NCBI RefSeq assembly: GCF_029955155.1
Contig: NZ_JAPNOZ010000011.1
Location: 62,001 to 126,000 of the forward strand
Origin: Psychrobacillus sp. NEAU-3TGS
Lineage (GTDB): Bacteria; Bacillota; Bacilli; Bacillales_A; Planococcaceae
DNA: 64,000 nt
Reading direction: 5' to 3'
Below the pieces are notes generated by a model. The model saw only the letters and a list, made by a program, of their open reading frames with translations. It did no database searches and was not told where the DNA came from. This document shows positions 35,478 to 46,268 of the stretch, one piece after another (the stretch's first letter is position 1; every line of letters begins with the position of its first letter). Both the position numbers and the translations under genes were made by a program.

Positions 35478-37250
35478 TTATAAACCACATTTTAACTGTG
35501 CATTACAGTTCGTGCATGTGTTACAGCCGCCCATTTCTTCTACCGTACCTTTTCGGCAAACTGGACAAGTATTTCCTACTTCTGAACCAATCGTTACATT
35601 CGTTGAGCGTAAATCTTGGATTGTATCGATTAATACAATAGGACGTTTTTCAAATACTTTTTCTTCTTCCTGCTCCTGATCGTCTAATGTATTTTCCTCC
35701 GCTTTTAGCGTTAATACTTGCGCATCACGACTTCCATCCACGTATACAGTGCCGCCTTTTGCTCCGCCATTGTATAAGCGTTCATAAACAGCTTCTACTT
35801 GCTCTACTGTGTAGCCACGTGGGGCATTTACTGTTTTCGAGATCGAACTATCAATCCAGCGTTGGATAATACATTGCACATCTGCATGTGCTTCTGGTGG
35901 TAATTCCATAGCTGTAACAAACCAGTTCGGAAGATTTTCTTCTTCCGCTGTTTCATTTTTAGCTAAATATTCTTTTACAATATCCGCTTTCACTTCGATA
36001 AATTTCCCTAAACGTCCACTTCTGTAATACGTAAACGAATAATAAGGCTCCAGACCTGTCGAAACACCAACCATTGTTCCAGTAGATCCCGTAGGAGCAA
36101 CTGTTAATAAATGCGAGTTACGAATGCCTGATTCTAAAATAGCATTTCTAATTTCCTCTGGCATTGTTTGCATAAATCCTGTTTCAGTAAAAGCTTTACG
36201 AAGTCGATTCGTTTCTTCCTCTGTTTCCCCTGTTAGGAACGGGAAGCTTCCTCGTTCTTTTGCAAGTTCCGCCGAAGTTTCATATGCTGCAATCGCAATG
36301 GTTTTAAAGATCTCATCTACTAAAATATTGCCTTCTTCAGAACCGTATTCTTTTTCACAATAAATTAGTAAATCTGCTAATCCCATTACGCCAAGTCCAA
36401 CACGTCGCTCGCCTAGTGCTTGTACTTTATTTTCTTCTAAGAAATATGGGGTTGCGTCAATAACATTATCTTGCATACGCACACCAACGCGTACCGTTTC
36501 TTTTAATGCTTCATAGTTTACTGTTTTTGTTTCTTTATTTGCAAATTGTGCTAGGTTCACAGCAGCTAGGTTACAAACTGAATACGGAGCTAATGGCTGC
36601 TCACCACATGGATTGGTTGCAACAACCTTTTGTCCATATGCTTTTGCATTTGTTTTTTCATTCGCATTGTCAATGAAGAAAACACCTGGCTCAGCTGAGT
36701 ATGTCGCACAAATATTAATCAAATTCCAAAGTTCTTTCGCTTTTACTGTGCGATAAGTTCTTACTGCATAACCCATTTTCTCCCACTCACGAACGTCGCC
36801 AATCGTATGCCAATTTTCGTTATAGAATGCCATTTCCTCTTCTGTATATGATTCAGTCGCTGGGAATCGAAGATCAAAATCTTCATCATTTTCTACTGCT
36901 TTCATGAAATCATCTGTTAGTGTTACTGAAATGTTGGCACCAGTTAAAAATTCTGGATTATGAACAGTGTATGTACCACCATCACGAAGTTTCGTCTCTG
37001 CATCACGAATGATTTCATTGCTGAACCCACCAAGACCAGGGATTGCTTTATAGTTTATAATACCTTGATACATCGCTTCTTCCTGCAATGTCAACGGTTT
37101 AAATTTAAGCTTGTCCTTCGCTAATTGTTTAATCGTTTCGTCTTTTGTATTTTCGATTAGGAATCGTAAAATTCGCGGATTTTGCATTTTCGAAATGATG
37201 AATTCCGCAATATCCGGATGCCAATCTGCCAGCATTATCATTTGTGCTCC
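35478..37250 (-). CDS. nrdJ: B12-dependent ribonucleotide reductase, exon 2 (C-terminal 590 residues)
   Basis: Continues the reductase after the intron beginning GAQMIMLADWHPDIAEF. Catalytic barrel text includes ATNPCGEQPLAPYSVCNLAAV (in part), VGLGVMGLADLLI and LLTVAPTGSTGTMVGVSTGLE. The C-terminal zinc ribbon is CPVCRKG and CNTCTNC. Read alone, the ORF would start with a TTG at 37253 that belongs to the intron end. Joined with exon 1 the protein is about 856 residues, normal for Bacillales class II enzymes. Confidence 0.93.
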   Translation of the reverse strand, partial: GAQMIMLADWHPDIAEFIISKMQNPRILRFLIENTKDETIKQLAKDKLKFKPLTLQEEAMYQGIINYKAIPGLGGFSNEIIRDAETKLRDGGTYTVHNPEFLTGANISVTLTDDFMKAVENDEDFDLRFPATESYTEEEMAFYNENWHTIGDVREWEKMGYAVRTYRTVKAKELWNLINICATYSAEPGVFFIDNANEKTNAKAYGQKVVATNPCGEQPLAPYSVCNLAAVNLAQFANKETKTVNYEALKETVRVGVRMQDNVIDATPYFLEENKVQALGERRVGLGVMGLADLLIYCEKEYGSEEGNILVDEIFKTIAIAAYETSAELAKERGSFPFLTGETEEETNRLRKAFTETGFMQTMPEEIRNAILESGIRNSHLLTVAPTGSTGTMVGVSTGLEPYYSFTYYRSGRLGKFIEVKADIVKEYLAKNETAEEENLPNWFVTAMELPPEAHADVQCIIQRWIDSSISKTVNAPRGYTVEQVEAVYERLYNGGAKGGTVYVDGSRDAQVLTLKAEENTLDDQEQEEEKVFEKRPIVLIDTIQDLRSTNVTIGSEVGNTCPVCRKGTVEEMGGCNTCTNCNAQLKCGL

Positions 37251-37590
37251 CAATTTTGTTACACCACCATATGTGGGGTTAGGTCATTTCTGCCTAACTC
37301 TTATGCTTTCACATAAGTTCAGACTATATCATCAAAGAAAAATCATTATTCTTTGTCTCGTGCCTTATAGAATCATTACTGATAACTATAATTTACTTCT
37401 TCCATAGCAATGCGTTAGGAAGTTTCAATAGTCGTTGAACGTTGATCTCCGTTTCCAAAGACCCTTCGCTGCTGATTGTCCAATCTCTCTTCTTTTCAAA
37501 CCTTCACGCTCACTATTACTAGTCACGTTGTGGTGAAGGGAGCTCTAAGGATGTTCCAGCAATTCACGAGATTACGTCGCCGATATGTTA
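37251..37590 (-). ncRNA. Group I self-splicing intron inside nrdJ (340 nt, no ORF)
   Basis: P1: exon end ACGTCGT pairs with the guide GCGACGT (37580-37574), ending in the required U-G pair at the splice site. The R element GTTCAACGACTA lies at 37440-37429. P7: GACTAT (37433-37428) pairs perfectly with ATAGTC (37327-37322) in the GATATAGTCT S element. P9 is CTTATGT-GAAA-GCATAAG (37317-37300, GNRA loop), then P9.1 GTTAGG/CCTAAC (37298-37278) and P9.2 CCAC/GTGG (37276-37264). The intron ends in G at 37251. Removing it joins ...GGSRR to GAQM... in frame. An in-frame TAA opens the intron, so the gene needs splicing. Confidence 0.92.
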
Positions 37591-38388
37591 ACGACGTGAA
37601 CCACCTTGTTCGACAAGATGAGTCAATTTAGCAATATCATCTAACCAAGATACAGAACCGGAAGATTTACCATTTACCCCGCGTGCTAATGTATTACGTG
37701 GACGAAGTGTAGAACCATTTGTACCAACTCCACCACCGCGGCTCATAATCTCCATTACTTGTTTACGATGATCACTAATTCCCTCACGAGAATCAGCCAC
37801 AAACGGCATAACGTAACAGTTAAAATATGTTACATCCGTTCCTGTGCCTGCTCCGTATAATACTCGTCCAGCAGGGATGAATTTTAAAGAAACTAATTGC
37901 TGATAAAACTTTTCGAACCATTCAGCTCTTTTTTCTTCCGTCTTCTCCACTGAAGCAAGTCCAGTAGCATTTCGTTTAGCAATTTGTTCATAGAATACTT
38001 CTAAAGGCTTTTCAATTACGCTAAGCGGGCGAGTTACAACACCTGATGCAACTTGATTGTTGTCATCAATTGCACTTCGATAATCTTCTTCAATCAATAC
38101 ATCCGCCGTTTTCGCTTCAACATCAATCGACACGATATATCCTAAACCGCGCGCTGGAAACTTTGGATCGTCTTTTACCGTTAATACGACAAAATCTCCT
38201 GTTTTTAACGTTTTTTTCTCCGTATCTTTAAAAGAGTAACGGTCAATCATAACTAGTTTAGATACACCTTTATGCGTTAATTTCATGTCCGTAGTAATTG
38301 GGTGTACTTGTGGAAATTGCTCAATATCTTTGTTTAATTGTTTAATGTTAATGGTTGCATTTGGGTTTTGAGATGCTAATACCATCAT
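37591..38388 (-). CDS. nrdJ: B12-dependent ribonucleotide reductase, exon 1 (N-terminal 266 residues)
   Basis: Adenosylcobalamin-dependent (class II) reductase, making deoxyribonucleotides without oxygen. Exon 1 carries the N-terminal domain and the start of the barrel: FIPAGRVLYGAGTGTDVTYFN contains the first catalytic-cysteine region, followed by MEIMSRGGGVGTNGSTLRPR, and the exon ends ...VEQGGSRR at the intron. GGGAGG precedes ATGATG, so the start could be 38388 or 38385. Tandem NrdR boxes lie just upstream. Confidence 0.93.
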
Positions 38389-45975: not shown

Positions 45976-46150
45976 TGGCACCTGAAAGTTTACCAAAATG
46001 GCTTTCCTCTTTGGTGGCTTTGCGTGATACTAAACGAAAGCACTCTCCAGAGTTGCGTCCTATACGAGTTCTTTTGCCTGAGAGATTCATAATAGTGATT
46101 ACTTGCTCCTTCGGCGACGCTACTTACAGCGTTCTCTCCCCGTATACTCA
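45976..46150 (-). ncRNA. Tandem glycine riboswitch
   Basis: Two aptamers in series. Aptamer 1 begins GAGAGAACGCTG, has GCCGAAGGAGCAAGTAA and closes with TCTCTCAGGCAAAAG. Aptamer 2 begins CTCTGGAGAGTGC, has CACCAAAGAGGAAAGCC and closes with CTTTCAGGTGCC. These are the conserved glycine-binding cores and linker. It activates gcvT-gcvPA-gcvPB when glycine is abundant. Confidence 0.95.
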
Positions 46151-46268
46151 ACCGCGATATCTGTATATATGGCTTGCTTTGTCTATATCCTAACATTGAA
46201 CATTAAAAGACGCAATACTTTTTATAAAATTACTTAAAATACGAACGATACATCTTTTTTTATATCAT

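Follow-up and report, generated by a model that had tools for sequence, protein, structure and literature searches.

Our analyses indicate with high confidence that the nrdJ gene of the soil bacterium Psychrobacillus sp. NEAU-3TGS is interrupted after codon 266 by a group I intron that, judging from the sequence, would be spliced, belongs to a lineage occupying codons 265 and 266 and lacks the endonuclease body. The stretch analysed, referred to here as the window, comprises 64,000 nucleotides, and the gene lies on its minus strand.

The insert in nrdJ

The features of the interrupted gene are as follows.
37591..38388, minus strand: nrdJ exon 1, 266 aa, ending in GGSRR; NF005991 match of 491 bits, profile positions 5-264
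37251..37590, minus strand: group I intron, 340 nt, without a functional ORF; first bases UAA, last base G
35478..37250, minus strand: nrdJ exon 2, 590 aa, beginning with GAQM; NF005991 match of 1166 bits, profile positions 265-858

An earlier note on this DNA described a reductase frame that ends at TAA right after GGSRR and resumes 340 nt on with GAQM, and these coordinates proved exact. We set the intron boundaries from the profile contiguity of the exons together with P1. The two matches to NF005991 (vitamin B12-dependent ribonucleotide reductase) abut, exon 1 reaching position 264 and exon 2 starting at 265, and their summed score (1657-1659 bits) falls within the range of 16 uninterrupted genes of the genus (1651-1676 bits), in line with the note's view that excision restores a full protein. 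The host protein matches the class II reductase profile, exon 2 alone exceeding the NF005991 cut-off of 854; by this profile the nrdJ product is a class II reductase, and its B12 dependence is predicted. In an alignment to Thermotoga maritima NrdJ (1xje), the position corresponding to the insertion lies between residues 208 and 209. Retention of the insert in the protein was ruled out, since a stop codon is the first codon of the intron. Profile searches found an insert at the same site in 3 of the 19 genus genomes (the window genome, G005 and G008), and the comparison with relatives proposed in the note gave 16 genomes with an uninterrupted nrdJ, one copy each.

Fold and covariation

The covariance-model search suggested in the note returned a group I match: the insert scored 74.9 bits against Rfam RF00028 (E 3.5e-17; gathering score 50) over 37300-37627, with the model complete from 1 to 253. 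The predicted fold of the window's intron RNA reached -97.4 kcal/mol (z -3.51), and 0 of 100 shuffles were as low. The elements that the note had drawn, namely P1 with a U-G pair at the splice site, P7 and three P9 hairpins, are all present, P7 having 6 bp. The core helices, whose names were assigned in the present analysis, are listed below.
37565..37571, minus strand: P3 5' strand (3' strand 37356-37362); 100% of cells paired in 22 introns, 2 pairs double-changed
37428..37433, minus strand: P7 5' strand, GACUAU (3' strand 37322-37327); 6 pairs, invariant in 22 introns
37333..37355, minus strand: P8 hairpin; 99% of cells paired, 1 pair double-changed
37264..37317, minus strand: P9, P9.1 and P9.2 hairpins of the predicted fold; 1, 4 and 4 double-changed pairs, respectively

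Covariation was counted in 22 of the 26 introns of sites 265 and 266 (L122, L123, L140 and L143 were dropped because the anchor was missing), over the 92 pairs left in the window's own predicted fold once P1 and P7 are removed, among them a 4-bp helix competing with P7. Across this lineage core (sites 265/266), 97% of cells were paired and 37 of the 92 pairs were double-changed, compared with 37-45% and 8-12 when the partners were slid by 1-3 columns; a structure derived from a single member is expected to beat its slid versions somewhat, and more weight lies with the double changes. Specifically, double-changed pairs were counted in P3 (2), P5 (1), P6 (1, plus 2 in its extension) and P8 (1), and these helices covary across the 22 introns, as do P7.1 and the P9 hairpins. 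P4 was paired in all 22 introns without varying, and P7 showed its standard 6 pairs in 22 of 22, none of them varying, so that covariation speaks neither for nor against these two helices. A joint alignment of sites 265-267 was kept out of the counts, its 3' ends being in the wrong register.

The window intron terminates in a G at 37251 (minus strand), as do 61 of the 62 introns that we mapped in the family; in the sole exception, L100, the inferred last base is not G. The RF00028 gathering score was reached by 39 of these 62 introns, and 21 of the 23 below it are longer than 1,000 nt. Subgroup IA is marked by additional hairpins (P7.1/P7.2) that separate P7 from the 3' strand of P3. The window fold has two hairpins there, at fold positions 181-204 and 212-238, both covarying, and the intron most likely belongs to this subgroup. 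Altogether, the sequence evidence gives good support to the insert as an element of a known kind, a group I intron.

Pairing of the guide with the exon

The two strands of P1 are these.
37591..37597, minus strand: P1 5' exon strand, ACGUCGU, its final U pairing with G; 7/7 pairs with the guide
37574..37580, minus strand: P1 internal guide sequence, GCGACGU

The guide was taken as the best match within about 60 nt, so high pairing arises partly by construction; the 7/7 pairs of the window P1 were equalled by 1.2% of shuffles of the same 63 nt. The observed pairing was matched by a median of 0.6% of shuffles at site 265, a median of 36% at site 267 and 23% at site 275. For sites 265 and 266, 7/7 pairing was reached in about 1-2% of shuffles and 6/7 in a fifth to a half. 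The P1 columns of the common-core alignment were out of register between these two sites (53% paired), and the per-intron guide search was used instead. The guide paired 7/7 with the last seven exon bases in 17 of 19 site-265 introns and 6 of 7 site-266 introns. The usual exon/guide combinations were ATCCCGT/GCGGGAT at site 265 and ACGTCGT/GCGACGT at site 266, with GCGGGAU present in 18 of 19 introns of the former and GCGACGU in all 7 of the latter. At site 267, 12 introns combined ACGTGGT with GCCTCGT (one U-U mismatch) and another 12 combined CAGAGGT with GCTTCTG; both exon variants encode identical residues, and a separate guide goes with each of them. A recurrent guide occurred in 9 of the 12 site-275 introns with 6/7 pairs, a level that shuffles often reach. 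On average, exons paired at 5.5-6.9 of 7 positions with guides of their own site and at 2.0-4.8 with those of other sites. The recurrence of guides that follow the exon is more telling than the pairing counts.

These features bear on a different reading, in which each half of nrdJ would be a translation product of its own, the two would assemble and the insert would be a dead, non-splicing relic. A TTG at 37253 could start an exon-2 frame, and a passage of PMC3653736 reports the nrdJ of phage phiYS40 as two consecutive frames. However, a dead relic should lose the core pairs, the guide and the terminal G, all of which are kept here, and we consider a split gene very improbable.

An insertion hotspot in the family

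The insert is not an exceptional case. We searched 261 genomes of the family with a 160-residue stretch around the site, taken from the uninterrupted L006 gene, and read the resulting table by hand: the match was broken in 58 genomes, full in 164 and only weak in 39, which were taken as lacking nrdJ. Of the 58 broken matches, 56 correspond to mapped inserts, G211 was cut by a contig end and G246 has no insert; in the latter (L146), the frame is broken at the hotspot by a single-base difference. The inserts of these 56 genomes occupy four nrdJ positions within 30 nt, after residues 265, 266, 267 and 275, and comprise 62 mapped introns (19, 7, 24 and 12, respectively). A solitary acquisition of the insert at or beside the window's site was thereby ruled out. 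Six genomes carry introns at both 265 and 275 (L126, L128, L129, L135, which is L078, L137 and L140), so that two group I introns are separated by an exon of 30 nt.

In many family genomes, nrdJ has further recurrent inserts at two other places, behind residue 482 and behind residue 654 (approximate positions). The group I score was reached by four inserts of the second place and by none of the first, whose small members (243-279 nt) lay below the RF00028 gathering score. One gene that has a site-267 group I intron (L112, from G066) also carries an insert of about 2.6 kb near residue 484 with a group II match (RF00029). Among the best 80 named nrdJ loci, 11 had hotspot inserts, including loci of Rossellomorea and Mesobacillus.

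On a quick exon-1 nrdJ tree of 143 rows, insert presence changed at least 24 times, 19 of them by well-supported branches alone, which argues that gain and loss recur. The non-carriers of this tree were drawn from the named loci and the genus, with three further loci added; L146, 12 duplicate loci and L147 (no exon 1) were left off.

Endonuclease genes and their probable decay

Introns longer than 1,000 nt made up 15 of 19 at site 265, 13 of 24 at site 267, 3 of 12 at site 275 and 0 of 7 at site 266. The ORFs tested differ in endonuclease type among sites 265, 267 and 275, amounting to three kinds. At site 265, LAGLIDADG_3 (PF14528) was above the cut-off in all three ORFs tested (L044, L050 and L078), with an HTH domain above it in two. 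The one ORF tested at site 267 gave DUF559 above the cut-off and Vsr below, and the one at site 275 matched an HNH domain. None of the 7 site-266 introns has an intact endonuclease ORF. Broken pieces of a LAGLIDADG gene were found in the site-266 introns L122, L125 and L127 and in short site-265 introns such as L145, L131 and L129.

The window intron contains no intact endonuclease ORF, the longest sense-strand ATG frame in its 340 nt having 9 codons; together with the RF00028 and NF005991 matches, this agrees with the note's description of an ORF-less group I intron in a class II nrdJ. Two stretches resemble the ends of the relatives' ORF.
37349..37405, minus strand: putative decayed 5' end of a homing-endonuclease frame, identified by eye; 19 codons in register with the start of the relatives' ORF, stops inside; overlaps P7.1 and P3
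37319..37339, minus strand: putative 3' end of the same frame; seven codons including the stop; overlaps P8 and P7; identical letters end the L044 and L050 ORFs

Some of the likeness of the 5' remnant could stem from the conservation of P7.1 and P3 themselves, which it overlaps, and tblastn of the endonuclease against the window intron gave no match at E 0.01. An L050-type endonuclease acting in trans in the window genome was ruled out, as the L050 protein found no match there (E up to 1 and 0.1) while the control, G067, was found at 1.5e-193. The same query found no relative in G005 and only distant ones (26-27%) in G008. Judging from the decayed pieces in relatives and the overlapping ends in the window, the window intron has probably lost the endonuclease and kept the ribozyme; the opposite direction, a gain of the endonuclease by the other introns, could in principle also apply.

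A one-codon change of site

The window intron is, by its core sequence, a member of the 265/266 lineage, which it shares with endonuclease-bearing introns one codon upstream. An intron tree was built from core sequences without P1 for 23 of the 26 introns (L122, L140 and L143 were left out). On one side of a branch with support 100/99 stand nine introns from site 265 and two from site 266, all of one genus; the other side includes the window's genus with its three site-266 introns and a second genus with seven site-265 introns. The genera of these two site-265 groups are judged to be Lysinibacillus and Sporosarcina. Well-supported branches require that introns changed between 265 and 266 at least twice, and parsimony gives three changes, on a tree that is unrooted, has only 3 of 19 inner branches starred and does not imply a direction. 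A single site-266 clade was rejected (AU p 0.0042).

This one-codon change with a matching guide is the most unusual detail of the system, and reverse splicing would be one option for its mechanism. It is conceivable, though we hold it rather doubtful, that the lineage repeatedly moves by exactly one codon in nrdJ (265/266), its guide fitting the neighbouring Ser-Arg-Arg codons each time, and that it does so probably by reverse splicing into nrdJ mRNA, not by endonuclease homing.

Possible transfer within the genus

Compared with its G008 counterpart, the window intron is 96.8% identical, against 90.1% for exon-1 DNA; for G005 the values are 97.9% and 93.8% (exon). Between -40 and +100, the flanking sequences of the three carriers agree at 97-100%, with mostly lower values farther out. 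In the nrdJ tree, G008 is closer to two non-carriers than to the remaining carriers. The non-carriers L160 and L169 have the same TCACGTCGT target, so open sites exist. These sequence patterns fit a recent transfer with co-conversion among the carriers; they are also compatible with a constrained intron or with its loss from the non-carriers. An assembly or contamination artefact can practically be dismissed, because the same site is occupied in these two further genus genomes, with near-identical introns, and in four genomes of other genera.

Expression and the second reductase

Exon 2 differs between the window and G005 by 7 amino-acid changes in 590 (dN 0.007, dS 0.29); the exon-2 comparisons of the window with L149 and of L148 with L149 were excluded as out of register by a one-codon length difference. 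Exon 2 is thus under strong purifying selection, which suggests expression and, by extension, splicing of the RNA. The window genome also encodes a class I reductase, with alpha (741 aa; NF006665, 1274 bits, cut-off 1057) and beta (343 aa; NF007184, 435 bits, cut-off 310) each in one open frame. NrdJ as the only reductase of the cell was thereby ruled out, and the suggestion that the supply of DNA precursors depends on splicing is weakened, since with uninterrupted class I genes it need not. As a separate observation, the window carries a glycine riboswitch aptamer at 46056-46151 on the minus strand (RF00504, 73.4 bits).

Splicing might also regulate NrdJ, for example by temperature or translation. 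In principle, the stop codon located at the splice site ties translation to splicing. Furthermore, G008 has a group I intron (L087, 1501-1841; 94.8 bits) directly 3' of a frame whose flagellin C-terminal domain is truncated, the PF00700 match stopping at profile position 53 of 86, and flagellin-gene group I introns of thermophilic Firmicutes are presented as temperature-dependent in a passage of PMC4853749. Nevertheless, patchy presence, both across the nrdJ tree and in the genus (16 of 19 members without the insert), fits a near-neutral mobile element better, and a regulatory role is unlikely.

Discussion

Guanosine attack followed by exon joining is the established chemistry of group I introns. 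For the window intron, the spliced reading entails that nrdJ mRNA would be made as a single transcript including the intron, and UAA, the first intron codon, would halt translation on unspliced RNA. The guide GCGACGU would pair with the exon end ACGUCGU, and guanosine would attack after its U. The exons would then be joined between Arg266 and Gly267, giving the full-length class II reductase. With the endonuclease body gone and only the putative core-overlapping ends left, the intron should no longer home by itself; its persistence is presumably due to splicing, which leaves it almost neutral, and to the rarity of precise loss.

The closest systems share only part of this picture. Group I introns in the class I genes nrdE and nrdF are described in passages of PMC3984707 and PMC3653736 from Bacillus and from phages such as SPbeta and Twort; they resemble the present case as group I ribozymes in a reductase gene, sometimes several per gene and near conserved residues, but the host gene here is a chromosomal class II nrdJ. 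The codon-265 introns of Lysinibacillus and Sporosarcina (L044, L050 and L078) have a homologous core, the UAAC start and ORF ends overlapping the same core stretches, whereas they sit one codon upstream, use the guide GCGGGAU instead of GCGACGU and carry ORFs of 272-294 aa. By coverage times identity, the top phage match was an endolysin-adjacent intron of Staphylococcus phages (Sextaecvirus, e.g. OQ355701), 80.9% identical over 56% of the window intron, which differs in its gene and in having HNH endonuclease genes on both sides. A passage of PMC1299323 argues that fungal rDNA group I introns spread by reverse splicing and explains related introns at differing sites through guide-exon pairing; that setting differs from the nrdJ shift, which spans a single codon of a protein-coding gene in bacteria.

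Among the matches listed, judged by title or the start of the abstract, none was a published group I intron in nrdJ of Bacillales or the window's family. According to a passage of PMC2795772, RNRdb has curated over 100 group I introns from RNR entries, which makes an earlier sighting of an nrdJ intron likely, and its set may contain one from this family.

Within the family, nrdJ is an intron hotspot with four sites within 30 nt and three endonuclease types among the ORFs tested at three of them. A single intron lineage that occurs in intact and decayed forms in related species allows the endonuclease life cycle to be seen directly. The second, uninterrupted reductase in the genome means that the effect of the intron might be measurable without lethality. 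The one-codon change with a matching guide offers a testable natural case of how endonuclease-less introns change position and, if the repeated moves by reverse splicing were true, this part of nrdJ would amount to a natural archive of bacterial introns transposing at the RNA level.
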